From Stieleria magnilauensis (GTDB taxonomy: Bacteria; Planctomycetota; Planctomycetia; Pirellulales; Pirellulaceae), in assembly GCA_007753675.1 (NCBI GenBank), contig CP036432.1, positions 1,028,394 to 1,092,393 on the forward strand: DNA of 64,000 bases, in the 5' to 3' direction. A program made the translations under genes and the position numbers. The notes beneath the pieces are model-generated. The model made no database searches. It saw nothing but the letters and a program-made list of their open reading frames with translations, and was not told where the DNA came from. The stretch's first letter is position 1, and each line of letters begins with the position of its first letter. Of this stretch, positions 41,609 through 62,499 are shown piece after piece.

Positions 41609-41610
41609 GG

Positions 41611-45127: not shown

Positions 45128-45158
45128 TGGATACACCAACGACAATCACAGTCGCGAC

Positions 45159-45216: not shown

Positions 45217-45493
45217 AAGAAGCCCGATAACGCTCGCTCGGCCGCCTAAATCTCTCTTGGATTTTGCTTCGATGGCCCGGGCTCGTTCAAGACGTATCTG
45301 CCAGGTGCGATGCTCTTCGGCGGTTGCCATGCTGGTCTCGATACGGTGAGCCGGCGGCAGCGGATGTGCGTTTTGCCTGCCAAGGTGCGCTTCGGCACCA
45401 CGTCTGCGCGAATTTGAACGCGATCAGCGCAGAGCGTCTCTGTTCGCCTCCCCGATGACGTTTGATTTTGTGTCTCCGATTTCCGTTGAACGT

Positions 45494-46651: not shown

Positions 46652-46666
46652 GTTTCGGCGACCGGT

Positions 46667-47658: not shown

Positions 47659-47760
47659 CGAAAGTTCCTTGTGGAAGGAGTGTGTGAAGCGGTTCACCGT
47701 GAACCGCTCCTTCCATCAAGGTCTCATACCCACCAAAATCCCGCCGCGAAGCGGCTTACT

Positions 47761-47847
47761 TGAACAATCGGATGCACGACGAGTCGCCGAGTAGTGGTTT
47801 TTGAAGTGGAGGATCGCTCGCGGCGACCGCGTGATCCGTTACGTTCC
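47761..47847 (+). repeat. attC next to the IS91 element
   Basis: The left arm TGAACAATCGGATGCACGACG pairs with CGTGATCCGTTACGTTC; the inner stem is GAGTCGCCG / CGGCGAC. Crossover is at G47843^TT. Confidence 0.85.
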
Positions 47848-48376
47848 TCGTAGGAAGCGAGACAACTCCAAACGTCGATCAGTGGTGATGGATTTACTGG
47901 GCCGATTGATCGAGTGTCGTGCATTTTCGGTCAACGCAATCCGCGTTGAGCTTTCGATGTCGGACCGTTTCGATCGATTGATCGATGCCGCACGCTTGGG
48001 CCGAATGGCTTTGGATCGTCACGGCTCATTGGCTGACGCGAATGGGAGACTTGGTGCGCGCCGCGAAGGACCCGTGTGCGGTTCCGGTGGAACGCACATC
48101 AAACTCTCCACGTGCCACCATGCCCGTTCTCTTTTCGTGTCATTTGTGTTTTTCGTGGTGAACCACCGCTAAATTGGTCCGCCAAATTCACGCCGCTCGT
48201 TTCGCAGACAAAGATTTGCGTCGACTGTTTCACCGCGGTATCCTCTTGCATCGGTCGCATCCAACGCTGCCGCCGAGTAATCGACGAGATCCGAGGAACC
48301 AAGCCGTGCACCTGAGCACTCGATCGAATCTGTTTTGAGTTCAAATTTGTCCGCTCGTGCCAGGTGACGGCGGACG
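47844..48376 (+). other. Gene-less cassette, second copy of cassette 1
   Basis: This 533-nt cassette is homologous end to end with 40516-41047; similarity begins and stops at G^TT on both sides. Divergence is greatest in the first 250 nt, while about 250 nt before and including attC are nearly identical. No shared coding signal is evident. Confidence 0.75.
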
Positions 48377-48380
48377 TTCT
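48294..48380 (+). repeat. attC of the duplicated cassette
   Basis: GGAACCAAGCCGTGCACCTG pairs with CAGGTGACGGCGGACGTTC; the loop palindrome TTTTGAGTTCAAATTT is like that at 40964. Crossover is at G48376^TT. Confidence 0.87.
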
Positions 48381-48421
48381 GTCGTCACTTACTGCGACGT
48401 CATTTCCGAGGGTTTTGTTTT

Positions 48422-48799
48422 TTGCCAAGTGTCAAGTTTAGCCTTCGAACGCTGCTCATCCTTGTCGCGGTGCTCGCTGTTGCAACGCAAATTTGGATGA
48501 ATCTGGAGTACAATAAACGTTGGCAGAGGACTCGAGCAGACCTTCGAGTTTGGGCCACCAACGTGGGTGTTGGTGAAAAACGACGTTCATCGCATTTCAC
48601 TTGTAGATTTGCCACTCAGTCAACACCATCGGCAACTTTCTCCGTTTCGACTTTTAGGTTACGGAAAGCGAAGGATGGTAGTTGGATACAAAGTACGGGG
48701 CCAACTCACCCTACTCGAATTTTTGTTGTTCCACCAGGAAAATGGGTCGATAGCGTAGAGGACGTCATCGAGACATGGGACCAGTTCCGATCGCACTAA
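48422..48799 (+). CDS. Cassette gene: small membrane-anchored protein, possibly frameshifted
   Basis: 125 aa from a TTG start, beginning PSVKFSLRTLLILVAVLAVATQIW, a typical planctomycete N-terminal membrane anchor. The remainder is not recognised. In the middle (48567-48758) another frame reads more protein-like (WVLVKNDVHRISLVDLPLSQ), whereas the end of this frame (WVDSVEDVIETWDQF) looks genuine, so paired frameshifts are possible. It lies between two attC sites. Confidence 0.55.
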   Translation: MPSVKFSLRTLLILVAVLAVATQIWMNLEYNKRWQRTRADLRVWATNVGVGEKRRSSHFTCRFATQSTPSATFSVSTFRLRKAKDGSWIQSTGPTHPTRIFVVPPGKWVDSVEDVIETWDQFRSH

Positions 48800-48832
48800 C
48801 TCGTCCTGAACACGTCAACAGCAAAACACTGA

Positions 48833-48922
48833 CAGAACCATGAAATGCACGGCAGGACGGGAGTCGCGATTCTTGGACTGCTTGCAAGTCTTTCGCCCGT
48901 CCACCGTGATTTCTACCGTTCT
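48833..48922 (+). repeat. attC
   Basis: CAGAACCATGAAATGCACGG pairs with CCGTGATTTCTACCGTTCTG; the inner stem is GGACGGG / CCCGTCC. Crossover is at G48918^TT. Confidence 0.88.
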
Positions 48923-48971
48923 GACACAAACAAACACTGTTTCGATTTTTAACTCTTTGGAGGGATTCGTA

Positions 48972-49427
48972 ATGTATCGCTTTATTGCTTGTTCAATCGT
49001 TTTTCTATTGGCAGTTTCGTCAAACGCCGCCGAACCACCGAGTCGCCACCAGGACGAGCTTTGCGAGATCAAACACCTGCTGTCCGATCTCACCCGTCGT
49101 GTTGCCAATCTTGAAAATTCGATTTTGAATCAACAGACGAGTGCGGACGTTTCGATTCACTTCGATCTACTCCGTATTCCGTACAGTTCTGATGACGAAC
49201 GCGAACTAGCACGAACCCAAATTTCGGCCAAGGGGCGCGACACTTACTTCGCGGGACATTTCTCGACAGATGCTGGATGGCGCAATATTTTGGTTGATGA
49301 TTCTTGCGACATCGAATCAGGTGTGGTTCGAACTGCAGCCCTCTCGCTAAAGACCGGGTTAATGAGTGAGATTCTTGACGACGGCAAGGCGTTGTACATC
49401 GTGCATGTGACCAATCGGACTCACTAG
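48972..49427 (+). CDS. Cassette gene: secreted protein of unknown function
   Basis: The 151-aa protein starts MYRFIACSIVFLLAVSSNAAEPP, a clear signal peptide with a cleavage site after the SNA/AA region. GGAGG lies 8 nt upstream of the ATG, which sets the start; a longer frame would begin inside attC. A short helical, coiled-coil-like segment (EIKHLLSDLTRRVANLENSI) precedes a beta-rich part. I do not recognise the family. Confidence 0.75.
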   Translation: MYRFIACSIVFLLAVSSNAAEPPSRHQDELCEIKHLLSDLTRRVANLENSILNQQTSADVSIHFDLLRIPYSSDDERELARTQISAKGRDTYFAGHFSTDAGWRNILVDDSCDIESGVVRTAALSLKTGLMSEILDDGKALYIVHVTNRTH

Positions 49428-49434
49428 GGACGGT

Positions 49435-49521
49435 CAGAACCAGCGGATGCACGTGAGCCGCCGAATTGACTTTATTGAAGTGGTCAGTCGATCGCGGCGG
49501 CCACGTGATCCGTATCGTTAC
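49435..49521 (+). repeat. attC
   Basis: CAGAACCAGCGGATGCACGTG pairs with CACGTGATCCGTATCGTTACG; the inner stem is GCCGCC / GGCGGC. Crossover is at G49517^TTACG. Confidence 0.88.
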
Positions 49522-49938
49522 GTGAAAGAATTGGAATATCGACCGATTCAACGAAGCATAGACAAGTTCCCGAGACGCAAGCCGTCACGCCCACTGAAGT
49601 TCTCAATCGCTCGTTTGCTATTCGCTACTGCAGGCGTCGCGATGGTGATTGCAACGATGCGGACCGTAGTCGCTCGCACGGGCTTGGACGCCCCATACGC
49701 GAGCATTGTTGGTTTCGCATTCGCCGGCGCATTTCTACTGGCATCGCTACGAGGCGACTGGGATCAACTAGGTGCTGCCTGTATACTCTTGTTTCCGACA
49801 TTGCTCGCAGCCGCGTTTGTCCCGGTCGCGATCCCGTTCATCTTGGTTTCCGTCTTCGAGTTTGGGTTCGTAGGTGCATTCATCGAGAATCGTAGACGCA
49901 AAAAATCACCCGGCGCAAAGAAGACGAGAATCACGTAA
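49522..49938 (+). CDS. Cassette gene: small integral membrane protein
   Basis: 138 aa from a GTG start at 49522, the first start codon inside the cassette. After a basic lead (FPRRKPSRPLKFSIARLL), three to four hydrophobic helices follow: LLFATAGVAMVIA, IVGFAFAGAFLLA, AACILLFPTLLAAAF and VAIPFILVSVFEFGFVGAFI. It ends with a Lys/Arg-rich tail (ENRRRKKSPGAKKTRIT). No family is recognised. Confidence 0.65.
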   Translation: MKELEYRPIQRSIDKFPRRKPSRPLKFSIARLLFATAGVAMVIATMRTVVARTGLDAPYASIVGFAFAGAFLLASLRGDWDQLGAACILLFPTLLAAAFVPVAIPFILVSVFEFGFVGAFIENRRRKKSPGAKKTRIT

Positions 49939-50020
49939 CCATGCCGTGCACCGAAGGACGGCTTGCGCGGTTTTTGGAGTGGAAAATCAATCGTCCGTCC
50001 TCGGTGACGGCTGCCGTTCT
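49935..50020 (+). repeat. attC
   Basis: GTAACCATGCCGTGCACCGA pairs with TCGGTGACGGCTGCCGTTC; the inner stem is GGACGG / CCGTCC. It overlaps the stop codon of the preceding gene. Crossover is at G50016^TT. Confidence 0.9.
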
Positions 50021-50034
50021 GCCATTGAAGATGC

Positions 50035-50529
50035 ATGAAACTGTTCGCTGATTTGACAGCTGACGACATTCGCAACCACCCCGTGTGGGAATTCTGCAAT
50101 GACGTTGAATCCAAATTCGGCGACGCAACTGTCATCCGACCGGTGAATGACGTACCGGTTTCCGACCTTGGCAATCGCGTGGTTGGGACGACACTGCAAT
50201 TTGCAAATGGTGACTCCGTTGTTGGCATACTGAGTAACATCGACCTTAACGATCACACGCAAACAGAGCATTTCGTTGCACTGACCTTGTACCGTGATGA
50301 CGGCAAGCTGTTCCATTTGGCCCGGTACCATGACTTCAACATCGACACTCACGGCCCAAACGAATGCGCTGCTTTCTTCGGCCTCGGCATCGCGGACGTC
50401 TTTCCAATCACCTACGATATCGGCTCTGTAGCGATCGGTGTTCCGGCTTCAATTCGTCGCGAGATACACGCTCAGCCGAAGCGACGTCTCGATGACGACG
50501 AGTTGATGCGGATGGCTGTTTCTGGCTGA
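50035..50529 (+). CDS. Cassette gene: soluble protein of unknown function
   Basis: The 164-aa acidic protein starts 18 nt inside the cassette (MKLFADLTADDIRNHPVWEF). It has no signal peptide or membrane helix. The size, acidity and isolated cassette setting resemble immunity-type proteins, but I can name no family. Confidence 0.7.
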   Translation: MKLFADLTADDIRNHPVWEFCNDVESKFGDATVIRPVNDVPVSDLGNRVVGTTLQFANGDSVVGILSNIDLNDHTQTEHFVALTLYRDDGKLFHLARYHDFNIDTHGPNECAAFFGLGIADVFPITYDIGSVAIGVPASIRREIHAQPKRRLDDDELMRMAVSG

Positions 50530-50544
50530 TGCGACCGAAGAAGG

Positions 50545-50627
50545 CAGAACCATCCGATGCAACCGAGCGGCGAAGTCGGACGTTTTAAAGTGGATGATCA
50601 ACCGTCGCCGCCGGCTGATCGGTAACG
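50545..50627 (+). repeat. attC whose crossover end meets an IS110-family element
   Basis: CAGAACCATCCGATGCAACCG pairs with CGGCTGATCGGTAACG; the inner stem is GCGGCG / CGCCGC. Instead of G^TT, the sequence after G50627 is ACTATGAAG, the start of an IS. Confidence 0.82.
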
Positions 50628-52790
50628 ACTATGAAGTCCGACATATGCAAGTGGCGGGTGCCACAATTTTTGGATTTTTAATTCGACATGGTCAGTGGTT
50701 CCTTGGGAGTGTCTTCGTTGGTGAGCGTTGAGGGAGTGGCCGCCTCGCGGTGATTCGTCGTGACGTTTCGACAAGGATGTTGATTAAACGACTATTCGAG
50801 GTGTGAACGCAATTGAACTTCTCGTAGATCCGCACTCGGCGGACTGCGTTCCCTCAGTGGTCCTTACACGGTTCAACCATCATTGATCGGTGGTGTGATT
50901 CCGCGCTGGATGCAGCTTGCCTGGAGGCTTCTTTGACTGGAGGCGTCATTGAGCAGCAAGCTACCTTCCGTCGGTGTGGCACATTCTTTAGGGCGACGTG
51001 TCTGAACCCTCTGCCGATTCGCTGCAGCGAATGGCTCCTATTGCGAAGGTCCAGTGTCAGCTTGTCTCGGTACTCACACACTCGGGTAGGTCTTCTCCTT
51101 GATCGATCGTCTCGGCGAGTCTCGCGGGGGCTCCCCGTCGGCTCGTGATTGGTCTTTGTGGTTGTTGGTGGAACGGGACGTGGTGGGTTTGAAAGCGAGG
51201 AGGTCCGATTCGTTACGCCGGCATCAAGTTGCCAGTCAGCCGGTACTGGTTGTCCTCGTCGCTCGGTGATTGATAAAGCGAGCAGGGCTGATTCGTTACG
51301 CCGATGTCAAACGCATCAGTCACGCGATACTAGCTTTCCTGCTCGCCGTGGCTTGGAACGCGACTTCGTCGCTGACTTGACGGGAGTGGACTTTTTCTTC
51401 GGTTTGGTCGCTTGTGGCGTCGCCTTTTCAGTTCGGCTTGAAGGGTTCGATGACGGACGCGTCTTCTTGTTCGTTGGCTTGGCCTTAGAGGTTTGTTTCG
51501 CATCTTTGGCTTGACGGGCCTCACGGCGCAGTCGGGCTTTACGTTGGTCGCTGTTCTCCTTGGGTTTCATGTTGAGCAGGGACTCCTTCAGCTTGTCTGG
51601 CATTTCGCCATACGACTCGGTGACCTCGACCATCCGTTTCGGTTCCCAGTCCTTTTCGTCACGCAGCATCGCCCAAGCGATCACGGCGATCTTGCGTGCC
51701 AGTGCGATTCCGGCCTTCTTTTTGCGGGTCTTTTGTTTGCCGCAGATTCGTTCGTAGATGCCTTTGGCCCATGGATTGTATCGCAGCGATGCCCACGCAC
51801 ACTCGACAAGGATGGTTCTTGCCAGCGGGTTGCCGCGTTTGGTGATCCGGCCGTTGCGATCGGTCTCGCCGGATTGATACTGACGTGGCACGAGCCCGAA
51901 GTAGGCGGACACTTGGCGTCCATTTTTGAATCGATGGGGGGCGTCGATACAGGCGACGAGGATCTCTGCGGTCCGCGGTCCGACACCTGGAATCGTGCGC
52001 AGGCGCTTGATGCGTTCATCGTTCTTGCCGAGTTCTTCGAGCCTCTTGACGATCGTGTCGAGTTGCTCGGTCAGTGAGTCGAGGATGGTCAACTCGATGT
52101 CGAGCTGGCCTTTCCAGAGTTCATCGGGAGTGCAGTCTTGGATCCCTTTGCGGAACGAATCGATGCGTTTTCGTCCGGTGTGCCAGGCCTTGTCTCCTTT
52201 GTCGATTTCGATCCCATGGTTGACGAACCACGCGCGAATGGTGTTCTTGGTTTTGTTGATTCGGCCGTCGAGCGTCTTTCGATACTTGACCAGTGATCGG
52301 AATTCTCGGTGCTCGGGCGAAGGCATGTGGACGGACTTGAGTTCCCCCATGGCAGCCATACGGGCCAGCTTCAAGGCGTCGTCCTTGTCGGTCTTTCGTT
52401 TGACGTTTGCCCAACGCCAGGCTTCTTCATTGGTCGAACAGACGAGTGTGTTTCGCTCGAAGGACTGCGCCAGATCGTTGATCCATCCGGAAGGCCCGCA
52501 AGATTCCATGACGACCAGATCGGCCAGCCGGCCTTCGTTTTGGAAGACACTCTGCAGGTGTTCGCGTTTGGTAGGCGTCGTGAGGAACGTTTTCTTTCGA
52601 GTTTTTGAATCGTAAACGCAACAAACAGAGTTGAATTTGCCGAGATCAAGGGCGAGAATTTTCATGGTTACTGTGTCCTTGGTTTTGGTGGGTGGAGCGA
52701 ATGTGACTGGCAGTCGCAAGCTGCCAGAATCACGGGTCCGAGTCGCCAGTTTACAAACAAATGACTCCCGCCCACCAAGCCTCGGACTTA
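50628..52790 (-). mobile_element. Second IS110-family element, at an attC crossover point
   Basis: About 2.16 kb with short subterminal inverted repeats AAGTCCGA (50634-50641) and TCGGACTT (52782-52789). The transposase is on the minus strand. About 690 nt of non-coding DNA lie 3' of it (50628-51315) and about 125 nt 5' of it, with a TTGGTGGG/CCCACCAA dyad (52685 / 52771). The 3' long end again fits the IS1111 layout. It contains a direct repeat of about 70-80 nt around 51195-51340 (GATTCGTTACGCCG and surrounding sequence). Confidence 0.72.
51316..52665 (-). CDS. IS110-family transposase with long basic tail
   Basis: The 449-aa protein begins MKILALDLGKFNSVCCVYD. DEDD motifs are LALDLGKFN, VVMESCGPSGW and KRKTDKDDALKLARM. 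The Tnp20 domain has LRTIPGVGPRTAEILVACI and GRQVSAYFGLVPRQYQSG. Family members usually end near residue 370. Here about 80 residues of Lys/Arg/Ser/Pro-rich tail follow (KARLRREARQAKDAKQTSK onwards), possibly RNA-binding or a translational extension into the IS end. Confidence 0.92.
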   Translation of the reverse strand: MKILALDLGKFNSVCCVYDSKTRKKTFLTTPTKREHLQSVFQNEGRLADLVVMESCGPSGWINDLAQSFERNTLVCSTNEEAWRWANVKRKTDKDDALKLARMAAMGELKSVHMPSPEHREFRSLVKYRKTLDGRINKTKNTIRAWFVNHGIEIDKGDKAWHTGRKRIDSFRKGIQDCTPDELWKGQLDIELTILDSLTEQLDTIVKRLEELGKNDERIKRLRTIPGVGPRTAEILVACIDAPHRFKNGRQVSAYFGLVPRQYQSGETDRNGRITKRGNPLARTILVECAWASLRYNPWAKGIYERICGKQKTRKKKAGIALARKIAVIAWAMLRDEKDWEPKRMVEVTESYGEMPDKLKESLLNMKPKENSDQRKARLRREARQAKDAKQTSKAKPTNKKTRPSSNPSSRTEKATPQATKPKKKSTPVKSATKSRSKPRRAGKLVSRD

Positions 52791-52840
52791 CATGGATTCT
52801 TTCGCCGAATGGAATTGCTTGGCCGAATCCGCTTCATCGC

Positions 52841-53122
52841 ATGCCGCACAACGAAGAACTCGTCGCCTTTTCGATCTATATTGTTTTTAGCGGGTTGGCC
52901 GTTCCGCTGGTCGCAAAACTGAACGTTGCGTATCCCAATGCTTCAGCGATACTTCTCGTCTTAATCGCCACGCCAATGCCTTTCTGGGTTGCAGCAATCC
53001 GATACAACATTCACGAGAGGTTGTTTTCCGCGTTGAGATGGCACTTGATGGCATTGGTCGCCGGAGTGCTGATCGCGATCCTCGGCATTGCATTACTGGC
53101 ACTTTGCAACCACGTGGTCTAA
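52841..53122 (+). CDS. Cassette gene: three-helix membrane protein
   Basis: The 93-aa protein begins MPHNEELVAFSIYIVFSG. Three hydrophobic helices (FSIYIVFSGLAVPLV; ASAILLVLIATPMPFWVAA; LMALVAGVLIAILGIALLAL) fill most of it. The longer frame upstream runs through the IS end and is rejected. No family recognised. I see no canonical attC between this and the next gene. Confidence 0.65.
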   Translation: MPHNEELVAFSIYIVFSGLAVPLVAKLNVAYPNASAILLVLIATPMPFWVAAIRYNIHERLFSALRWHLMALVAGVLIAILGIALLALCNHVV

Positions 53123-53243
53123 ACACTGCGTCCGTGATCAACCAGTTCTTGATTGCATGCGACGGCATGAATTAAGATTGATGTCATCGGGTGGACTGAT
53201 CGACACGACAAGTCTCGGCGAACCAAGGGGTACCACTGAAATC

Positions 53244-53777
53244 ATGACTCCGCTCGACGTCTCAACGATACTTGGCAACAAAACTCGTCCGTGGTTTCAC
53301 GTTTGCCAATTGAGCATTGGCCGACAGGCCGCAGCAGAATTCTTCGATGTCGATGCCGTTGCTGCAGACGAACCCGGATTAGGTGATGGCGACTATTGGG
53401 CCGTCAAATTTGACTGCGGACTCAAACTTGCATTCGAGTTTTTTCACTGGAGCAAAGGTGGATCGGTGTTTGCGGACCTTCCCTGCTCCCAGCATGCTCG
53501 CCGCCATTTACGTCACTGGGACTCTGAACTCGTTGACGTACCTCGTGACATGCAAGAGCCTGATCGTGGCGCGATGATCGAGCGGTTCGCCGGCGAAATG
53601 CCAGAGCTGCTTGAACTTGATGCCTTTCAAGTTTGGCGACAGGGTGACGATGGCAATCAGGTGAAGATTGGTATGCCGACAACCAAGCGCGACGCAGATT
53701 GTTGGGTCGCGGAATTTGAATCACACCACCACAAACAGATATACTGGGCATCCCGGTGCGTCAGCGCTTCAACGTGA
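53244..53777 (+). CDS. Cassette gene: soluble protein of unknown function
   Basis: 177 aa from MTPLDVSTILGNKTRPWFHV. The segment GDYWAVKFDCGLKLAFEFFHW and later ADLPCSQHARRHLRHW are distinctive, but I can name no family; the size and style are immunity-like. The start is the ATG after a weak GAAATC. It lacks a detectable attC in front, perhaps because of rearrangement with the upstream IS. Confidence 0.65.
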   Translation: MTPLDVSTILGNKTRPWFHVCQLSIGRQAAAEFFDVDAVAADEPGLGDGDYWAVKFDCGLKLAFEFFHWSKGGSVFADLPCSQHARRHLRHWDSELVDVPRDMQEPDRGAMIERFAGEMPELLELDAFQVWRQGDDGNQVKIGMPTTKRDADCWVAEFESHHHKQIYWASRCVSAST

Positions 53778-53789
53778 CGCATAAGAGGG

Positions 53790-53878
53790 CAGAACAATGC
53801 CGTGCCCACGGAGCACGGCTTGCAAGGTTTCGCAAATGGAAAGTGGTCTCTCCATGCCCGGTGACGGCTGCCGTTCTG
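53790..53878 (+). repeat. attC
   Basis: CAGAACAATGCCGTGCCCACGG pairs with CCCGGTGACGGCTGCCGTTCTG. Crossover is at G53873^TT. Confidence 0.88.
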
Positions 53879-53883
53879 GCAAG

Positions 53884-54603
53884 ATGAGTGCTGCACTGAA
53901 TCCCTACGCTCCGCCACAAACCTTGAGCACCGACCTCCGGTCGTTTGGCTCACGGTATCGCGTCGATAATTCCAGAACTACGATTCGTGAGTTCCAGAAC
54001 TTATCCGGCAGACCAATCATAGGAGCAATCGTCTGGTTAGCAGCGCGAGCCGGATTGACAGAGCTCAATGGACAGATAATTGACGGCCCCAAGGCATTAG
54101 CTGAGGACCAATGCGAAGTTGATGATCTCCACGATCCTGTTCGCAGTCACCTGCTATCAGTCTGCGATTCTGCCCGGACGCTTGGTTTTCATTCGCCCGT
54201 TTACTCAGTGTCAAACTCAACGGGTGTTGAGGTTCACGGCGGAGCCATACGGATGTTGCATGACACCGGACGATCGTTTCTTCAGATACTCGCTTCCGCC
54301 TCGGGCACATTAATGCAAGGCTACGAGATAATCGTGTCTGCAAAATCAACACCTGCATCCGTGTTTTCGACTACAAACGGCCCACCGAACTACAATTTGT
54401 CTGATGGGGTAACAGCGCGCCGGCATCTGGGGGCAACGCTGAATGAGTTGCTCGACTACCACAACGAAATGACCGACCAAATCAACGACCTGATGATGTT
54501 TCGGTCATTTGTGGACGCTGGGGCAGTCATGGACCACCTTTCGACGTTATACTATCGTGACAAAATCGCCCGTGGGATATTCGTGGAAGAGCCAGAACCA
54601 TGA
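53884..54603 (+). CDS. Cassette gene: protein of unknown function
   Basis: The 239-aa protein begins MSAALNPYAPPQTLSTDLRS; N-terminal NPYAPP is common in planctomycete proteins. A hydrophobic stretch (GRPIIGAIVWLAARAGL) lies near residues 45-60. The rest is mixed alpha/beta with GATLNELLDYHNEMTDQIND near the end. No family recognised. The stop codon lies inside the following attC arm. Confidence 0.7.
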   Translation: MSAALNPYAPPQTLSTDLRSFGSRYRVDNSRTTIREFQNLSGRPIIGAIVWLAARAGLTELNGQIIDGPKALAEDQCEVDDLHDPVRSHLLSVCDSARTLGFHSPVYSVSNSTGVEVHGGAIRMLHDTGRSFLQILASASGTLMQGYEIIVSAKSTPASVFSTTNGPPNYNLSDGVTARRHLGATLNELLDYHNEMTDQINDLMMFRSFVDAGAVMDHLSTLYYRDKIARGIFVEEPEP

Positions 54604-54605
54604 CA
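54593..54605 (+). repeat. attC left-arm fragment, cut by a group II intron
   Basis: CAGAACCATGACA is the left end of an attC that resumes at 55362 with TGCACCGGAG. Joined, they read CAGAACCATGACATGCACCG, a canonical arm like CAGAACCATGAAATGCACGG at 48833. Confidence 0.85.
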
Positions 54606-55361
54606 ATCGGGATAGGGGTCCGGATCGCTCCGGAACCCCTCCCACACCACCGGACATGCGGGTCCGCATCCGGCGGTTGAGCACGAGTTTCAAATCTTCG
54701 CGTTGCCGCGAAGACTTGGGGCCATTGAATCACGACCAGCGCCGCAACTGGTTGACCGCCATACGGCGATTTGTCTCCGAAGAGACAACAGCACGAGCTA
54801 CCCACGATACGTACTTGCTCGTTCCCTTCGGGACTTCGCCGGCCACAAGGGTCCGCTACGATGCCCTCTGCTGACTTCCAGTCGGCACCGAGTCACTTTC
54901 GAATGCACGGCCCTGGCTTTCGGGCAAGCCCTACTCCCAGGTACGCCAACTGGATCTCCCCAGATAAGAACGCGATCTGTCCCTGCCCAAGCTCCCCATT
55001 TACCTACGCCCAGAGCTTTTTCAAGGCATCCGCCTGGCTTCCGGTTCGGCTTCGCGGTCAGCAGCCAGCTGGAACGCTTTGGGTCGCTCTGCGACGGGCC
55101 TGGAGTCGTCGGCCTCGTATGAGGTTTCTGTTCGTAACAACCGCAGGTCTTGGCGAGCATGTGGTCAACGGCGTGATTCAGGTTGACACTTACGCACACA
55201 TTCCTAGGCTTCCTCTCCACGGTCTGTTGCTTCGCCGCAGTTGCCCTCGCCTCGTACTGTCTTTCGTTAGAGATTCATTTGGTATACTGACTCCAAGAAA
55301 GTAACCGGAACTAAGTACAGGGGACTTGCACCCCACAAGATCACGCTCATGCTGGACGTAC
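54606..55361 (-). mobile_element. ORF-less group II intron inserted antisense in attC
   Basis: On the minus strand this 756-nt unit begins GTACGTCCAGCATGAGCGTG (consensus GTGCG...), followed by GGGGTGCAAGTCCCC typical of domain I. It contains GAAGTCAGCAGAGGGCAT and CCGAAGGGAACGAGC of the domain II/III region. It ends with a domain V hairpin (CCGCCGGATGCGGACCCGCA then TGTCCGGTGG), the linker GTGGGAGGG, a domain VI hairpin (GGTTCCGGAGCGATCCGGACC) and a terminal CTATCCCGAT. No reverse transcriptase is encoded; domain IV is a short hairpin region. Deleting it restores a canonical attC arm. It would need a maturase in trans. Confidence 0.82.
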
Positions 55362-55434
55362 TGCACCGGAGAACGCGAGCTGGGCGGATTGAAGTTGAGA
55401 ATCTTTCGCGCGTTCCCGGTGACGCGTGCCGTTA
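55362..55434 (+). repeat. attC right part after the intron
   Basis: TGCACCGGAGAACGCGAG pairs with CGCGCGTTCCCGGTGACG and ends GTGCCGTTATT. Crossover is at G55431^TT. Confidence 0.87.
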
Positions 55435-55435
55435 T

Positions 55436-55819
55436 TTGGCAGAGAAACGATTGGACCACACATTGCCGCAATCTGATTGGGAGGCCGACATTCGGGCAGA
55501 GTTCCCAGATTGGCAAACAGATGCTGCCGTTGAACGGTGGCCTGCTATCAAGGAATCACTCCACGTAGGACAATCCGTGACTGGCAACGTCATATCACGC
55601 GCACCATTCGGTGTATGGCTCGACATTTCCGTCAAACAACCGGCGCTTCTGCTGGTCGTGAATGTGGACGGTGCAAACAAGAAAGGTATATCATTTGCCG
55701 ACTATCCGCAGATCGGAATTGAACTGACGGCACGGATCAATGCTCTTGGTGACAAGGGCGAAATTGGACTCACTCAACAAAATCCAGACAGGATGATCGA
55801 GGGCGAGGAAGCCAAATAA
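55436..55819 (+). CDS. Cassette gene: S1-like RNA-binding domain protein
   Basis: 127 aa from a TTG at the cassette start (AEKRLDHTLPQSDWEAD). The second half has an OB/S1-like pattern: HVGQSVTGNVISRAPFGVWL, then VDGANKKGISFADYPQIG and GEIGLTQQN. This suggests a single S1 domain that may bind RNA or the ribosome. The longer upstream frame comes from attC and the intron and is rejected. Confidence 0.6.
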   Translation: MAEKRLDHTLPQSDWEADIRAEFPDWQTDAAVERWPAIKESLHVGQSVTGNVISRAPFGVWLDISVKQPALLLVVNVDGANKKGISFADYPQIGIELTARINALGDKGEIGLTQQNPDRMIEGEEAK

Positions 55820-55902
55820 CCAAGCCGTGAACTGGCGCACTCATTCACGCGGCAACTGAATTCAAAGCCTTCCGTTCGTGCCCGGTTACGGCAGGCGTTC
55901 GT
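55813..55902 (+). repeat. attC
   Basis: AAATAACCAAGCCGTGAACTGG pairs with CCCGGTTACGGCAGGCGTTC. Crossover is at G55897^TT. It contains the stop codon of the upstream gene. Confidence 0.82.
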
Positions 55903-55923
55903 CCGCTCAAGTGCCTACATTGA

Positions 55924-56385
55924 ATGACCGTCGAATCGAATTTCCGTCAATACTTGACTGATGCGGGGGTGCGATGGTCCCTACTCGATTCCGCTGCTGC
56001 GATCGACGCCGAGCGGAGGTGGCGAGACGTTTATGGTCAGACGTTTGTTGAGCGTTCGCGTGTGAAGACCGGGGCGAAGGCGGACAATGAATATCGGATG
56101 GAACTAAGTGCCGCGTACCTAATCGTGCCCTTCACGTCCGGTGTCAACGGACTTCCCGTTCATGTGCTGCATCGCCGCCTCAGCGCGTACGAATGCAACG
56201 GCCCACTTGTCGACTTTTCCAGTTTCCACGATGTAGAACTGTTTGTATCGCCTTTCGACTACGAATGGACGATGGTGTACACTCACGAGGATCACGCATG
56301 CGGCGGCCCTTACTTCCATCGCCGAGAATGGATCAACGCGGACGAACCAGGCGATGCACCCAAGTCGCGGAGTCGGCGTTTTTGA
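55924..56385 (+). CDS. Cassette gene: DUF4275 family protein, C terminus encoded by attC
   Basis: The 153-aa protein begins MTVESNFRQYLTDAGVRWSL. The C-terminal core FVSPFDYEWTMVYTHEDHACGGPYF is characteristic of DUF4275, small immunity-like proteins of unknown function. The last 13-14 residues (PGDAPKSRSRRF) are encoded by the attC left arm, so cassette exchange would not change them, but they are unlikely to be functional. Confidence 0.78.
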   Translation: MTVESNFRQYLTDAGVRWSLLDSAAAIDAERRWRDVYGQTFVERSRVKTGAKADNEYRMELSAAYLIVPFTSGVNGLPVHVLHRRLSAYECNGPLVDFSSFHDVELFVSPFDYEWTMVYTHEDHACGGPYFHRREWINADEPGDAPKSRSRRF

Positions 56386-56429
56386 CAGTTGAAAATCTTT
56401 CGCCGCGACTGGGTGATCGCGGTCGTTCA
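56341..56429 (+). repeat. attC
   Basis: CGAACCAGGCGATGCACCCAAG pairs with CTGGGTGATCGCGGTCGTTC; the inner stem is GTCGCGG / CCGCGAC. Crossover is at G56425^TT. Confidence 0.88.
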
Positions 56430-57171
56430 CGCCGCTGACCGACGCCTGACGGCAGTGCCGATTTCTCTTTCGTGTGTTTGGCGTGTTTCGTGGTTCCCTC
56501 TTCTGCGATGTTCTCAGCATCGTCCAAAACCTGAAATTCAGGCAGCGACTGGTGCGCTCGAAGTGCGCGCAACGGATTTCATCAGACCTCCGTTTCCTGG
56601 GATTCGCTTCTGATGTCATCGTTCGACAGGTACGCGGTCGACTGGGCCGAACGAAAAGAACCGATGGCTGAAATGGTGACCTCTCAGTGTTTGCCGAGTC
56701 CAACGGAATCGATGGATCGTCTTTGGTTGGTTGGGCGATGTGTCTTAGGCCCGGAGGGCCGATAGAGTATTTGCCGGTGGTGTCAGCCACCGGGGATGGA
56801 TTCCATACAACGCTCAAGGCCCAGCGGGCCGACACAGTAATCGGGGTTTGAGCGTTCCCGGGCGGCTAAGAGAACAATTGTGTCGGCCCTTCAGGCCTTT
56901 GTACTTCATTGCCCTAAAAACCGGTGGCTGACACCACCGGCAAACACTGTGCCAGCCCTCCGGGCTTCATCGTACCTGTCCAGCGAAAACAAGTCTGAGC
57001 CAGACACCTCGAATTTCCATCGGCGATTCCAATCGAGTACATTGGCCCCCAGCGATGATGGTTCAAACTGTCGTCGTGGCCGGACGCGTGAACCAAGTGG
57101 TGCACCGCAGTCGGCGAGTCAAGTTTGTTTTGAGTTCCGGTCCATCGCGCCGACGCGGTGACCACAGGACG
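56426..57171 (+). other. Gene-less recurrent cassette, copy 2, with REP insertion
   Basis: This starts TTCACGCCGCTGACCGACGCC and ends like copies 1 and 3. A foreign block at about 56640-57000 carries a perfect 23-nt inverted pair (56771-56793 and 56921-56943, built on TTGCCGGTGGTGTCAGCC) and GGCCCGGAGGGCC / GCCCTTCAGGCC motifs, a REP-like family. It replaces the CACGCAAAGTCGCC block seen in the other copies. Length is 746 nt. No supported gene. Confidence 0.72.
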
Positions 57172-57175
57172 TTCC
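57088..57175 (+). repeat. attC of recurrent cassette copy 2
   Basis: GTGAACCAAGTGGTGCACCG pairs with CGCGGTGACCACAGGACGTTC; the inner stem is GTCGGCG / CGCCGAC. Crossover is at G57171^TT. Confidence 0.88.
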
Positions 57176-57205
57176 CCGACCGAATGGCAGTATTGAATAC
57201 GCTTC

Positions 57206-57787
57206 ATGCTTTGGCCCATTGTCCTACCGTTTCAAATAACGGGCGTTGCTTTCCTGCTTGCGGTCGTACTTCTGACTGCCACGCGAACGCCACGGAAATG
57301 GACTCGCATCAACACACTGCTGATTTCGTCCATCGCGGCGATCGTTCTTTTCATACCCTCGTGTACTGGTGTCATGTTCGTCGCGGACTCCATCCGCTTC
57401 GGGCACTTCCATTACGACTCGTTTGACGCAATCCCCGACTTTCGATCGCAACGCTACTTGCCTCGCGCCGCATCGAACATTGAGATGCACAAGCACGCCA
57501 ATGGCTACAGAGCACGGTACGACATATCCGCCACCGACTTTAAGGCCTATCTCGACGGATTGTGGACGCAATACGGTGAGCATTCCGCCGTCGAGCGTGG
57601 TGGTTTCATGGAGGAGGGGCAAACGGTGTCACCTGAGCTATTCAACCATGCATTTGACGGACTAAACTGGTCGTGTCCCGCGACTGCTATCGTCTATTAC
57701 AGTCCATCCGAGGGTGATGGCGGTGGCGCAACGTACTACTTCGATGCTGACGCTGGCCTAATGTTTCAACGAACGGGGTTCTGGTGA
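57206..57787 (+). CDS. Cassette gene: two-helix membrane protein
   Basis: The 193-aa protein has two N-terminal membrane helices (IVLPFQITGVAFLLAVVLL; INTLLISSIAAIVLFIP). A soluble domain with YDISATDFKAYLDGLWTQYG and a C-terminal AIVYYSPSEGDGGGATYYF follows. The soluble part is probably extracytoplasmic. No family recognised. Confidence 0.72.
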   Translation: MLWPIVLPFQITGVAFLLAVVLLTATRTPRKWTRINTLLISSIAAIVLFIPSCTGVMFVADSIRFGHFHYDSFDAIPDFRSQRYLPRAASNIEMHKHANGYRARYDISATDFKAYLDGLWTQYGEHSAVERGGFMEEGQTVSPELFNHAFDGLNWSCPATAIVYYSPSEGDGGGATYYFDADAGLMFQRTGFW

Positions 57788-57802
57788 TCTGCATGGAGAG
57801 GC

Positions 57803-57892
57803 GGGGAACCACCCCGTGCACCGGAGCCGGGCTTGCGGGCGTTTTGGCAATGGTTGACTTTACACTCCCGGCCCCGTGACGGGCACCGTTCT
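57803..57892 (+). repeat. attC
   Basis: GGGGAACCACCCCGTGCACCG pairs with CCCCGTGACGGGCACCGTTC; the inner stem is GCCGGG / CCCGGC. Crossover is at G57888^TT. Confidence 0.87.
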
Positions 57893-57927
57893 GTGGAAAC
57901 AACATCGAAGTTTAAGAGGCGAGTTGA

Positions 57928-58512
57928 TTGTCTGACGTGCCGCATTTATTGATCGTCGGTGGACCGAACGGATCCGGCAAGACAACGGTCGCGATGCGAT
58001 ACTCAGCGTTTCTGTCTGTGCCCTACATTGGAGCCGATGCAATCGCGGTGTCGATCTGTCCCGCGGACCCCGCATCTGCAAGGATTGCTGCAGGACGACA
58101 GTTCAGTCGAAGTGTAGGAGAATTCCTTGCAAGTGGAACATCCTTTGTTGCTGAATCGACATTATCAGGACGATCCCTTCGCAGGAATCTGATCAAGGCA
58201 GGGCAACGCGGCTTTGAGATCACGATCGCATTTGTTTTTGTCGACTCGGAAGACGTTTGCGTCGCCCGAGTGGCGGAGCGAGTTCGCAAAGGCGGACACG
58301 ATGTTCCGGAAAATGATATTCGACGCCGTTTTGGTCGAAGTATCAATAACTTCTGGACAGTCTATCGAGGATTGGCTGACAATTGGGTTGTATTGTACAA
58401 TGGAGGTGGTCGCATTCAGGATGTTTCAGCAGGGTCACGTTCCCATCTGACGATTCGCGACTCAACGCTCCACTCCCTTTTTATGACCTCGGTGCAATCG
58501 CAAGATGATTAG
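57928..58512 (+). CDS. Cassette gene: zeta-toxin family P-loop kinase
   Basis: 194 aa from a TTG start (SDVPHLLIVGGPNGSGKTTV). Walker A is GGPNGSGKTT. FVAESTLSGRSLRRNLIKAG and the Arg-rich RVAERVRKGGHDVPENDIRRRFGRSINNF match the zeta/PezT-like group. PezT-type toxins phosphorylate UDP-N-acetylglucosamine and poison cell-wall synthesis; distant members may act on other substrates. The stop overlaps the next gene by 8 nt, indicating a two-gene module in one cassette. Confidence 0.85.
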   Translation: MSDVPHLLIVGGPNGSGKTTVAMRYSAFLSVPYIGADAIAVSICPADPASARIAAGRQFSRSVGEFLASGTSFVAESTLSGRSLRRNLIKAGQRGFEITIAFVFVDSEDVCVARVAERVRKGGHDVPENDIRRRFGRSINNFWTVYRGLADNWVVLYNGGGRIQDVSAGSRSHLTIRDSTLHSLFMTSVQSQDD

Positions 58513-58747
58513 ACGGGCCAAGCTAACTGCCAAGACATACGCTACCGTTGACGAGCTCATCCGACTCGGAGGAATTGCCGTCGAGGACGCCCAGGATGAA
58601 AGCAGACGTTTAGGCGTACCCAACGTCTACTCGATCAACGGTCGACTGTACTACGAAACGCCATCTGGTGAACTGTCGTCGGAAGACCCGTACAGGGAGA
58701 AACAGTCAGCCACAGAACCAAGGGATGCAACTGAGCGGCGGAGTTAA
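58505..58747 (+). CDS. Cassette gene: small partner (likely antitoxin) of the zeta-like toxin
   Basis: The 80-aa protein begins MIRRAKLTAKTYATVDELIR. The core ESRRLGVPNVYSINGRLYYETPSGEL recurs in small genes next to zeta-like kinases, so an antitoxin role is inferred. The ATG overlaps the toxin stop. The last ten or so residues (TEPRDATERRS) are encoded by attC. Here the toxin comes first, unlike epsilon-zeta and PezAT. Confidence 0.68.
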   Translation: MIRRAKLTAKTYATVDELIRLGGIAVEDAQDESRRLGVPNVYSINGRLYYETPSGELSSEDPYREKQSATEPRDATERRS

Positions 58748-58800
58748 GGTTCTTTGTGAGATGATGTCACCCGCCGCCGCCAGTTGATCCCGGTCGTTCA
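58713..58800 (+). repeat. attC
   Basis: CAGAACCAAGGGATGCAACTG pairs with CAGTTGATCCCGGTCGTTC; the inner stem is GCGGCGG / CCGCCGC. Crossover is at G58796^TT. Confidence 0.88.
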
Positions 58801-59367
58801 CGCTGCTGACCGACGCCTGACGGCAGTGCCGATTTCTCTTTCGTGTGTTCAGCGTGTTTCGTGGTTCCCTCTCCTGCGATGTTCTCAGCATCGTCCAAAA
58901 CCGGAAATTCAGGCTGCGATTGGTGCGCTCGAAGTGCGCCCCTCGGATTTAGTTCGACCTCTGTTTCCTAGGGTTCGCTCCTGATGTCACGGTTCGATAG
59001 GAGCGCTGGCGCGCTTGCTGGAAGAGCCTCACGCAAAGTCGCCAAGCCGCAAAGATTTGAACCCGCTACTTTGCGGCTTCGCGTCTTTGCGTGATTCTTA
59101 TCTTTCTTGGTGCACGGTCGTCTCGGCCGAACGAGGCAAACCGACGCCTGTCGATACCAACGCTGACAACCGACGCCTGACGCATTGGCTGCTGATTGGG
59201 AGACGCGATTTCCCTCGGTGATTTCAATCGTGTACATTGGCAACCAGCGATGACGGCTCAAGCTGTCGTGGTGGCCGATCCGCGTGAACCAAGTGGTGCA
59301 CCGCAGTCGGCGAGTCGAGTTTGTATTTGAGTTCCGGTCCATCGCGCCGACGCGGTGACCACCGCCG
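58797..59367 (+). other. Gene-less recurrent cassette, copy 3 (most complete)
   Basis: 571 nt with all shared landmarks in order: CCGACGCCTGACG, the TTTCGTGTGTT...GTTTCGTGGTT block, GGTGCGCTCGAA, ACGCAAAGTCGCCAAGCCG with its inverted partner, two further CCGACGCCTG motifs, GTGTACATTGGC and the attC. No open frame is common to the four copies. Confidence 0.75.
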
Positions 59368-59372
59368 TTCGC
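59284..59372 (+). repeat. attC of recurrent cassette copy 3
   Basis: GTGAACCAAGTGGTGCACCG pairs with CGCGGTGACCACCGCCGTTC; nearly identical to 57088-57175 and to the split site at 42147/43937. Crossover is at G59367^TT. Confidence 0.9.
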
Positions 59373-59383
59373 CCGTCTATCGA

Positions 59384-59767
59384 ATGAAAGCATTCACACC
59401 GAAGTCAACGGCTTACCTGAGAGCAGGGCAATACTGGAGCCTTCCGCTAAAACGCGGCCTCTATGGTTGTGGTGTTGTGCTTTCACGTGTTGAACGCGAA
59501 GGAAAACCAGACACTAGAATGTTCCTAGCCGGACTGCTTGAGTGGATCAGCGATTCGCAACCGACAGACGAAGCAATTGTGAATAGGCCAATCGCCTCAA
59601 GACACTTTGCGCACATCAAGATGATTCAAATGACGGGTGGCCAACTTATTGGCGAGCTTACTCCTTGGTGGGAAATCGATAATCTTGGTTCATTTAGCGA
59701 CGACATACCGACGGCGGGATACAATGTTTTTACCATCCTTGCCCAAAAGCAAGCCGATGCGAAGTAA
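59384..59767 (+). CDS. Cassette gene: Imm26-like immunity family protein
   Basis: The 127-aa protein starts MKAFTPKSTAYLRAGQYWSL, 17 nt into the cassette. The N-terminal pattern G.YW.LPL..GLYG.GVVL and the later MIQMTGGQLIGELTPWW resemble the Imm26 family of polymorphic-toxin immunity proteins. No toxin gene is adjacent, so it may be an orphan. Confidence 0.6.
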   Translation: MKAFTPKSTAYLRAGQYWSLPLKRGLYGCGVVLSRVEREGKPDTRMFLAGLLEWISDSQPTDEAIVNRPIASRHFAHIKMIQMTGGQLIGELTPWWEIDNLGSFSDDIPTAGYNVFTILAQKQADAK

Positions 59768-59776
59768 TGCTTAGGG

Positions 59777-59864
59777 GCGAACCATGCGATGAACCGAAGT
59801 CACGGAGTCGTCGTTTTTGACAATGGAAAATCTTTCGCCGCGACTGGGTGATCGCGGTCGTTCG
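59777..59864 (+). repeat. attC
   Basis: GCGAACCATGCGATGAACCG with CTGGGTGATCGCGGTCGTTC; the right arm and loop are almost identical to the attC at 56341. Crossover is at G59860^TT. Confidence 0.85.
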
Positions 59865-59876
59865 TCCAAACTAGCT

Positions 59877-60326
59877 TCACGGAGCCTGGAGTCGCAGTGT
59901 TGCCCGACGCTCATCAAGATACTTCTCGATTGCGTTGTGACCGCGTTGCGTTTGATTGACTACAAGTGACAGATTTTGCGGGTATGGCGCGATCTCTGCG
60001 GGTCCGCCATTTGTGTCCCAGGAGTTTTGTTCAACAGATTGCTGGATGCTTTGAATCAGCTTCCCAAAGTCTGCAATCGATTCTGGTCCGTCTGCCAACA
60101 CCAAATCGGAAACGCGATAGTGCCGCTTGACCAGCTTGGCGTTCTGTGATTCCGCCCAACCATTGTCGTATCCTTTCGCGTAGCCTTCACTGCCGCCCCG
60201 TTCTTTTCCCAATTTGAATGCACCAAATCCGACTGCGAGCAAAAGTATCGCGAAGAGCATAGCTTTCAACCCAAATTTCGCTCTGGGATGAATTGGGACC
60301 TTGATGTGAAACTCAAACGCATCCAT
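59877..60326 (-). CDS. Reverse-oriented cassette gene: membrane-anchored planctomycete protein
   Basis: About 149 aa from MDAFEFHIKVPIHPRAKFGL. One membrane helix (MLFAILLLAVGFGAFKLG) is followed by a soluble domain containing YRVSDLVLADGPESI. The block SWDTNGGPAEIAPYPQNLSL then VVNQTQRGHNAIEKYLDERR is the common planctomycete SWxxxGGxxxI...L.V.QT...H..I module. It is the only convincing minus-strand gene in a cassette, so it cannot be read from an array promoter and should carry its own. Confidence 0.72.
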   Translation of the reverse strand: MDAFEFHIKVPIHPRAKFGLKAMLFAILLLAVGFGAFKLGKERGGSEGYAKGYDNGWAESQNAKLVKRHYRVSDLVLADGPESIADFGKLIQSIQQSVEQNSWDTNGGPAEIAPYPQNLSLVVNQTQRGHNAIEKYLDERRATLRLQAP

Positions 60327-60418
60327 CTTAATGCACCCTGTGTTTTCGATCTCAACTTGCAACCTGCACATCCTATGGCATCATCCGCTCAGTGGACAAC
60401 AGGCTGTCTGAGTGGACG

Positions 60419-60508
60419 GACGAACCAGCGAATGCACATGAGCGACGGAATCAGCTTTGTCCTTGAGTTTAGAACGTATGCCGTCACCATGTGATTCGTA
60501 TCGTTCAC
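60419..60508 (+). repeat. attC
   Basis: GACGAACCAGCGAATGCACATG pairs with CATGTGATTCGTATCGTTC; the inner stem is GCGACGG / CCGTCAC, imperfect. Crossover is at G60503^TT. It follows the reverse-oriented cassette. Confidence 0.85.
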
Positions 60509-60990
60509 GCTGCTAGGCGACGCCTGACACGCTAGTCACTACGATTCGTGTCATTCGAGTGATTCGTGGACAAATCTCTTCTCCGCCGATTTCGTGAATG
60601 TCCAACGCCTGACATCCCGACTGCGATTGGTGCGCTCGAATTACGCCCACCAGATTGCATCAGACCTCTGTTTCCTGTGATTCGCTCATGACGTCACGGT
60701 TTGAAGTGTACGCCGATGTAGCTGCTGGAAAGACCTCACGCAAAGTCGCCAAGCCGCAAAGATTTGAACCCGCTCCTTTGCGGCTTCGCGACTTTGCGTG
60801 ATTCTTATAACTCTTGGTGCGCGGTCGCCTCGGCCGAACGAGGCAAACCGACGCCTGTCGATCCCCACGCTGACGACCGACGCCTGACATCCCGACCGGA
60901 AAATGGGGGCCTCGATTTCCCGTGGCGTTTCGGATTGAGTACATTGACAAAGTCCGCCGATGGCTGTGCTGTCGTCGTGGCCGGACGCGC
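60504..60990 (+). other. Gene-less recurrent cassette, copy 4, truncated; end of the array
   Basis: This has the landmarks of copies 1 and 3 up to GTCGTCGTGGCCGGACGCG, but then reads CAAGCCATCC instead of TGAACCAAG, so its attC is missing. No attC is seen further right. This marks the distal end of the array. Confidence 0.72.
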
Positions 60991-61812
60991 AAGCCATCCG
61001 CTCGCACACGCCGTCACAAAGTTGGCGTCAATTGAAGACACATGCTCGCTCGCGGTGCCTCGCTAAACGGTGGACGTTGAAATCAATCGCATTGCTTTCC
61101 GCTTTGACGGTTGGCGTGCGGTCACGGTGGGGCGGCGTTGCGTGGGACTCCGGGTCGGAAGGCTGACGCCAGCTTCTTGAATCCTCTGGCCGCAGGTCGT
61201 CAGCGTTTTGGTGCGGTCGCCGTCTTGATCTCTTCTGGACCGTTGAGTGATTCGCAGGCGTATGGCTCCCCCGTCACTCGCGTCGTGTGGTCCGCGGTGT
61301 TTGTCTTTTAGTGAAAGACCAAACCGACCGAACGCACGACGCGATGATCCTTGGGAGTCGAGCGGCATTGGAGGTTGGAGGTGCACCTGTTAGATCCGAA
61401 CGTACTGTGTCGGCCTTCCAGGCCTGCGCGGAAGTTGCATCGGGGACCGGGCCCTGACGGGCCCGGCAGTCACTCTGTCAGCCCGCTGGGCTTTTTTATC
61501 GTAGGGTGACGCTGCGCTGACCTCCGGCTACTCGCTGTGATCCCTCCGGGATGTCGATTTGCTTGCTCTGGCAAGTGAATAAGAAAACGCGGCGGTGCGG
61601 GAGGCGGAGCCGGTTCCGCCTCCCGCCACCCAACTCGATTTTGCCTGGGACAAAAACGCTGGCACGCATTGGCAGGATCCGTTCTAATCGAGTCCGATCA
61701 CGGGCCCAAGGGAAGGCCGACAAAGTTATGGCGTCGATCTATCCCTGTTCCTTCGCATGCGTGGATAGATCGCAAACGTTCTGTCTACAACTGGCACATC
61801 GTGAGGTCCAAA
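60991..61812. other. Region between the integron and the next gene, with a REP-like repeat
   Basis: From 60991 to about 61395 nothing recognisable is found. From 61400 to 61565 there are dispersed-repeat motifs (TGTCGGCC / GGCCTG, GGGCCCTGACGGGCCC, and GCTGCGCTGACCTCCGGCTAC shared with 18800-18820). No gene supported. Confidence 0.5.
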
Positions 61813-62388
61813 ATGATGCGTCCCGGTTTCGTTTGTTTGCTGGCCTTCACCATGGCCGCGGCCATTGCTACCGAGTTACCCGCTCAGGTCCCCACACCGG
61901 AGTCGAGCGCGCGTGAACAGTTCAACCAAGTGTTCGTCAAAGTCATCGTGCCCATCACCCCTCACACTCCTAAGCAGGACGGCCCCGTCGTTGAGTCTTG
62001 GGTTGCAGAGCAGCTCAAACAACTGGGCGAGTCCGAATACTTTGCTGTCACGAACTGGGTGCCTGTTTGTGACGGGCTACTTGCGGACGATCTCGTAGAC
62101 AATCGCGTTCGTCTTCACGGCAAACTCCCCTTTTGCCCTGTTGGCGGAGACATTCCTGAACGGGAAAACGGTCGCTTGTTGGTTCGCGTTGGAGGCTTTA
62201 CGCCAGGCGGTGGCGAAGCGAACATCAGGCTACCGGATGAACCAGGTAGTCGAGCCGTTGGGCCCGTGCGGTTGCTTGTTGGGAAAGAAGGAAAGCGGAT
62301 GAAGATCGAAGAAGGGCTCCCATATGTGGCAGTCATCATTGCGCCGCCACCTCTGGAGAGAGTCACGTTACGCGGCGATGCCAAATAG
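61813..62388 (+). CDS. Secreted protein of unknown function
   Basis: The 191-aa protein starts MMRPGFVCLLAFTMAAAIAT, a signal peptide. The rest is a beta-rich soluble domain (RLLVRVGGFTPGGGEANIRL; GKEGKRMKIEEGLPYVAVII). Longer upstream starts exist, including GTG 61801, but the signal peptide supports 61813. No family recognised. Confidence 0.75.
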   Translation: MMRPGFVCLLAFTMAAAIATELPAQVPTPESSAREQFNQVFVKVIVPITPHTPKQDGPVVESWVAEQLKQLGESEYFAVTNWVPVCDGLLADDLVDNRVRLHGKLPFCPVGGDIPERENGRLLVRVGGFTPGGGEANIRLPDEPGSRAVGPVRLLVGKEGKRMKIEEGLPYVAVIIAPPPLERVTLRGDAK

Positions 62389-62499
62389 GCAGATCAAGGT
62401 GATAAACCGGAGCCGCCGATCACGCGAATTCTGAAATCATCGTTGTTTGGCGGCGGCCCGATTACCGCCGGTGTCTCTGCGACTCAATCGATTGTTGTC

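Follow-up and report, generated by a model that had tools for sequence, protein, structure and literature searches.

A stretch of 64,000 nucleotides (nt) of Stieleria magnilauensis DNA (contig CP036432.1; C1:1028394-1092393), hereafter the window, was analysed within its genome, a single contig of 10,769,056 bases. The window carries an integron, consisting of an integrase, a cassette array and its attC sites, and one attC is interrupted by a group II intron. A first-pass annotation had described an intron without an open reading frame (ORF), lying inside an attC and antisense to the cassettes. Sequence analysis confirmed positions 54606-55361 of the minus strand as a group II intron without a reverse transcriptase (RT) gene, antisense within an attC of this planctomycete integron. 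The attCs were detected by R1, a covariance model made from 15 attCs of the window array, the interrupted attC being outside the training set. The features are listed below in window positions, EBS1 and IBS1 being exon-binding site 1 and intron-binding site 1.

38933..39892, minus strand: integron integrase IntI (TIGR02249, 309.8 bits; cut-off 265)
40965..62483, plus strand: cassette array with 20 attC matches by R1 at E <= 9e-7 (15 training sites and 5 new ones, the interrupted attC among the new)
55362..55441, minus strand: R', L', loop and L'' of the interrupted attC, forming the 5' exon side on the minus strand (R1, 48.0 bits, E 1e-10, at 55352-55441 minus)
55362..55365, minus strand: IBS1 TGCA, the last four nt of the 5' exon and the end of attC L'' (junction reading and column scan)
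54606..55361, minus strand: ORF-less group IIC intron, 756 nt, 5' GTACG ... CCCGAT 3' (Rfam RF00029 and RF02001; end-to-end sibling copies with other flanks)
55060..55063, minus strand: EBS1 TGCT, its TGC being complementary to GCA in the 5' exon (best column in a scan of 92 aligned introns; pair counts)
54646..54677, minus strand: domain V hairpin (within the RF00029 match; bounds by eye)
54675-54673, minus strand: catalytic triad CGC of domain V (read by eye from the G-U wobble position)
54606..54643, minus strand: domain VI, with the likely branch-point A at 54613 (within the RF00029 match; bounds and A by eye)
54592..54605, minus strand: spacer and R'' core (GTT at 54598-54596) of the attC, cut off by the intron (joined flanks 52.5 versus 38.3 bits)

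The intron was recognised by two Rfam families, domains V and VI by RF00029 (41.8 bits, gathering threshold 40, E 7.7e-5, 54606-54678 minus) and domains I-IV by RF02001 (33.2 bits, gathering threshold 32, E 0.0053, 54969-55199 minus), both scores being barely over the gathering threshold. The minimum free energy of the 756 nt was 4.6 standard deviations under that of dinucleotide shuffles, and none of 20 shuffles gave an equally good fold. A six-frame search of the whole genome gave no RVT_1 match inside the intron. The attC profile score of the site rose from 38.3 bits as found to 52.5 bits after joining of the flanks, and the joined strand folded with a 13-bp L stem containing one bulged T; native attCs form a long, bulged L stem on their bottom strand. 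The two outcomes set beforehand as evidence against the first-pass annotation, a missing domain V match and flanks that do not join, were both examined, and neither occurred.

An ad hoc attC finder had given 19 candidates, several of them false, and was replaced by R1. The R1 scan of the whole genome detected at least 137 attCs at E <= 0.001, about 0.1% of the genome, this number being a lower bound because 150 of 5985 first-look candidates were scored. A second IntI above the TIGR02249 cut-off is located at C1:8809994-8810932.

Seven copies of the intron with both ends were found in the genome, in seven different attCs, together with fragments. Besides the window copy, four are full-length and ORF-less, with 96, 90, 90 and 89% identity to the window copy over positions 1-756, one is internally deleted and one carries an ORF. 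An ORF-less sibling is located at C1:10583452. The 5' exon ends with TGCA and the intron starts with GTACG in all seven, while the 3' end is CCCGAT in six and CCCGG in the deleted copy. Since the copies match positions 1-756 end to end and their flanks differ, they represent separate insertions, and both ends of the window intron are set exactly, as had been claimed: TGCA/GTACG on the 5' side and CCCGAT/ on the 3' side, a slash marking the junction. All eight recognisable 5' junctions (the seven copies and a 5' fragment at 8414633, which is in the core register described below) overlap an R1 attC, with scores of 48.0, 41.0, 27.4, 25.4, 48.3, 57.3, 33.0 and 52.0 bits. All 11 intron matches in the genome have minus orientation and are spread over four array regions, and about half of the 137 attCs are on the plus strand by hand count.

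The ORF-bearing copy (10587961-10589699) encodes 360 amino acids (aa) in a single open frame. In comparison by eye with L122, a locus of a same-genus genome with an intact 467-aa RT including the YADD motif, the segment between VDM and ERYLTGTLKL, the RT active site included, is gone. A relative with a maturase gene, the search for which the annotation had proposed, thus exists, without the catalytic part in this genome and intact in L122. The other PF00078 matches in the genome are L031 (C1:8455001-8465000), which is another kind of group II intron (RF02005, 107.6 bits) with its RT split over two frames, and L033 (C1:347211-347732), a stand-alone RT with a VVDD motif, non-intron-like by eye.

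These copies bear on the alternative that the intron is a dead relic, its old fragments having been moved by cassette shuffling or segmental duplication and not by retrotransposition of an ORF-less intron. The loss of the RT active site from the single ORF-bearing copy detected, the internal deletion of one copy and the presence of fragments are in agreement with a relic, but the four full-length ORF-less siblings (89-96%) are located in four other attCs with unlike flanks, a pattern not produced by duplication, and short copies in other genera are also at attC junctions, making this alternative unlikely.

The class of the intron was examined through its ORF-bearing relatives, the window copy itself having no intron-encoded protein (IEP). 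The RT of L122 scored 430 bits with the GsI-IIC RT, 321 with 7uim, which we take to be a IIC ribonucleoprotein, 140 with LtrA and 116 with 6me0, presumably a IIB maturase. At least 5000 plasmid records matched this RT, the 40 listed being 44-54% identical. Among five plasmid introns examined, L142 (P. putida), L143 (Klebsiella) and L146 (Raoultella) are in class 1 integron settings and antisense to the cassettes, with intI1 annotated in L142 and L146 and int with sul1 and qacEdelta1 in L143; L145 (Shewanella) is antisense to adjacent small ORFs on one side; and L144 is a class C-like intron outside integrons. L142, L143 and L146 all match RF02001, RF01998 and RF00029, of which the window copy matches RF02001 and RF00029 and its sibling copies RF01998; at E <= 0.01, RF00029 is absent in L122 and L130 and present in L135. 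The 5' ends of L142, L143, L145 and L146 matched our in-house 5' profile at E 2e-11 to 4e-13, and that of L144 did not match it. Since RF02001 also matches L144, this family marks the class and not the preference for attC.

An RT tree was then constructed with 60 rows, after 14 of 74 had been dropped as unrelated, long, partial or near-duplicate. The 39 attC-associated rows (16 classic, 23 planctomycete) were separated from the 21 others with branch support of 100/98, and the classic (100/96) and planctomycete (100/99) clades were sisters. The labels were assigned in this analysis and include rows without a seen attC junction (classic L203, L204 and L215; planctomycete L183, L196 and three unlabelled ones) and two rows with atypical junctions (L133 and L186), and the tree is without the CL1 or class E references of PMC7923331. 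L191, from a metagenome-assembled genome labelled Rubricoccaceae, encodes an RT (64% identity) that falls within the planctomycete attC clade, through mis-binning or transfer.

Class C introns enter just behind a hairpin (PMC4424553; PMC7923331), and IIC introns carry a CGC triad (PMC7923331). At the window intron a CGC triad (by eye), an attC L hairpin upstream and a short EBS1-IBS1 pairing are all present, and TGCA occurs in 14 of 15 aligned native attCs at the foot of the L stem, so that the intron enters directly behind the hairpin as class C introns do. On these grounds the intron is class C, or group IIC, and belongs to the attC-invading group IIC introns.

The annotation had held that the domain I/III motifs look unlike class C and that the intron might be an independent solution, a non-class-C group II lineage converged on attC. 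The difference in insertion register, the modest RF02001 score of the window copy (33.2 bits for domains I-IV), the RF02001 matches of planctomycete relatives, which at 64-74 bits (partial) are well under the 122-138 bits of the plasmid introns, and the unresolved fork in the 74-row tree agree with such a lineage. The IEP of the intact relative is nevertheless of class C, nearest to GsI-IIC (430 bits against 140 for LtrA), the Rfam families and the 5' end are common to the class 1 integron introns, the RT falls into one clade with classic class C-attC introns at 100/98, and a sister branch inserts in the classic core register. An independent origin is thus extremely unlikely, and this part of the annotation was abandoned in favour of class C; as read from the junctions, the real difference from classic class C-attC introns is the insertion point within the attC.

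To describe this point across the family, 97 loci (overlapping stretches included), taken from part of the DNA and RT match lists with the best matches first, were scanned, giving 98 distinct 5' junctions, 60 of them paired with a 3' end. With tandem junctions left out, the attC profile score was higher after joining of the flanks in 53 of 57 pairs and unchanged in four (L046, L133 and L178 at 0 both ways, L159 at 4.3 both ways). The median scores were 29.4 joined, 21.6 as found, 23.2 out of register and 0 shuffled, and the true join was better than the out-of-register control in 52 pairs, tied in four and worse in one (L177). In three loci, L122, L129 and L196, introns stand head to tail (CCCGAT/GTACG), as if one had inserted at the 3' end of another.

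Introns of the window type enter at TGCA/, about 8 nt upstream of the R'' core and near the foot of the L stem, while a sister planctomycete branch keeps the R'' core site. The distance from TGCA to the insertion downstream of it is 0 nt in 42 of the 98 junctions, 1-4 nt in 12 and 8-9 nt in 10; in the other 34, some of which are core-register or atypical (e.g. L057, L176), TGCA is absent from the final 18 nt. A simple count of the distance to GTT mislabels a few rows (e.g. L053, L028, L039) and serves for the overall picture only.

The pairing partner was searched for in 92 aligned 5' regions (88 planctomycete, 4 plasmid) by scanning each column for complementarity to the terminal 4 or 5 nt of the 5' exon. 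One column was outstanding (z 12.7 with 4 nt, 90 rows; next column 6.5), at which the window intron has TGC(T), classic introns ACAA, and others ATG, CGTG, GGTG, CAAA or ACCA. The 59 shape-filtered rows averaged 3.0 of 4 pairs, compared with 1.49 in shuffled sets (the highest of 2000 shuffles being 1.95), and 47 of the 59 formed 3-4 bp. Counted as 22 distinct IBS/EBS combinations, the mean was 2.73 pairs against 1.16 shuffled, and 0 of 5000 shuffles was as good. Since the column pairs with the end of the 5' exon, the shift of register appears to follow EBS1, though some rows pair poorly, and in our reading EBS1 is the main determinant of the insertion register, with the poorest fit in the +3 variants. 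In the RT tree the R'' register is common to the classic and the planctomycete core branches, which makes a derived spacer register the simplest assumption.

We estimate at about 0.85 the probability that the window element is a non-autonomous group IIC intron of a planctomycete branch of class C-attC introns, served by an IEP in trans and targeted by a hairpin together with EBS1. To spread, the RNA of this IEP-less intron would reverse-splice into attC bottom strands in single-stranded form, with the IEP supplied by an ORF-bearing relative. The attC hairpin just upstream would make the first part of the target choice, and the EBS1-IBS1 pairing of 3-4 bp would fix the exact nucleotide; since TGC of EBS1 pairs with GCA of TGCA at the end of L'', insertion would take place about 8 nt short of the R'' core, at which classic introns insert. 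The insertion would fuse two cassettes, and the attC, with R'' split from L'', should no longer recombine. With no RT active site in the single ORF-bearing copy detected, the intron copies of this genome are probably immobile at present, and mobilisation in trans would belong to the past or depend on other cells.

Several observations weigh against this interpretation. The attC matches of 27.4 and 25.4 bits at two of the eight junctions are weak and absent from the 137 attCs of the whole genome. The domain I stem of the window copy carries substitutions relative to its siblings (by eye), and for this reason the copy may be decaying. The RT tree of 74 rows leaves the planctomycete and classic clades on an unresolved fork, and the shares of the registers are biased because similarity to the window intron guided the choice of loci. 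With respect to the pairing, the shape filter removed 33 of the 92 rows, misaligned ones and also good pairers such as L129; two or fewer of four pairs are formed in 12 of the 59 rows and 9 of the 22 combinations; and kinship of the sequences inflates the shuffle statistics, an inflation lessened by the count of distinct combinations. The poor pairers, given as IBS1 with EBS1, include TGCG with TGCT (three rows), ACCG with CGAG (two rows, +3 register), TGCA with TACT, TACA with TGCT, CGTA with TGCT, ATTG with CCAG, GCCT with ATGT, CGAC with CGGG and, at a tandem junction, CGAT with TGCT, and EBS1 accounts poorly for the +3 register.

DNA of the window intron was matched, in many cases partially, in 108 of 241 genomes and 35 of 68 genera of the family, and the L122-type RT in 143 of the 241 genomes by a search that also catches other introns. 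The alternative that the intron is a regulatory or structural host element under selection, for instance a promoter or an attC silencer, and not a parasite, is very unlikely in view of this sporadic distribution (108 of 241) and of the fragments, both of which look parasitic. By length alone, 52 two-ended introns were divided into 25 short (640-900 nt), 18 full (at least 1900 nt) and 9 intermediate ones, and on the DNA tree of these 52 the short state changes at least six times on starred branches, as gains or losses. We lean, with some reserve, towards a wider reading, in which a family of attC-hairpin retroelements has been re-aimed by exchange of 3-4 nt of EBS1 to at least two registers in one attC arm (one in the R'' core, the other at the border between L'' and the spacer, where variants at +1 and about +3 occur) and has repeatedly shed its protein gene, giving trans-mobilised, non-autonomous attC-breakers that would lock cassettes across Pirellulaceae-like genomes.

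Target sites of class C-attC introns were reportedly the subject of Quiroga and Centron and of Leon and Roy, both in 2009. The class C-attC introns of class 1 integrons, L142, L143 and L146, resemble the window intron in the class C-type IEP of its relatives, the common Rfam families, the 5' GTACGCCC, the antisense orientation to the cassettes and an EBS1-IBS1 pairing at the same alignment column (theirs ACAA with TTGT), but they insert at TTGT/T in R'' and not at TGCA/ before the spacer, their RTs are 45-49% identical to that of L122, and the window copy has no ORF. The planctomycete core-register introns (L129-L132) share the host family and the attC bottom strand and form the sister clade; they differ in inserting at TTGT/, TTGG/, TTTG/ or ATGG/ in the R'' core, with EBS1 mostly matching. 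Class C introns behind terminator-like hairpins (Streptomyces, Geodermatophilus, Nocardiopsis and other loci, L214-L265) also have a class C-type IEP and, at loci with a visible 5' end, are preceded by a GC-rich repeat resembling a hairpin, but these hairpins are not attC-like, the introns are outside the attC clade, and "terminator" is a reading of their flanks. According to PMC7923331, TTGT/T in R'' is the majority, though not universal, target of class C-attC introns, a target not used by the window intron and the other spacer-register introns (TGCA/); the same source ties group IIB introns near halophile integrons (UHB.I2, H.ha.F1/F2) to cassette arrays as well, with the differences that their IEPs are of CL1 and class E, that UHB.I2 is in sense orientation after the attC and that the others are truncated. 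Among the matches listed, with the primary class C-attC papers outside the coverage, no full-text title concerned group II introns of planctomycete integrons or ORF-less attC introns, and the shifted insertion register is regarded as new provisionally.

Other mobile elements are present in the same array. Two IS110-type transposases are encoded at 42711-43847 and 51316-52719. Insertion of an IS110 element into an attC would presumably be of the IS1111-attC type; no R1 attC match at E <= 1 was found within 50637-53790. At 45494-47697 an IS91-like Y2 transposase adjoins a Xer-like recombinase in two overlapping frames, and several further recombinases of this kind are encoded outside it in the genome. 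For the split recombinase frames at 46667-47697 an assignment as IntI was considered and rejected, the IntI of the array being that at 38933-39892.

The window intron belongs to a separate branch of the known attC-invading introns, a branch that seems to have been re-aimed to another point of the site by changed targeting letters. Class C introns choose their targets by a hairpin and a very short pairing, not by a long homing site, and in the natural series offered by this family a change of EBS1 goes with a shift of the insertion point along one defined DNA hairpin, so that existing pairs could be used to test whether the hairpin or the base pairing decides. In the cassette arrays of planctomycetes, class C introns are common parasites of attC and may freeze cassettes.
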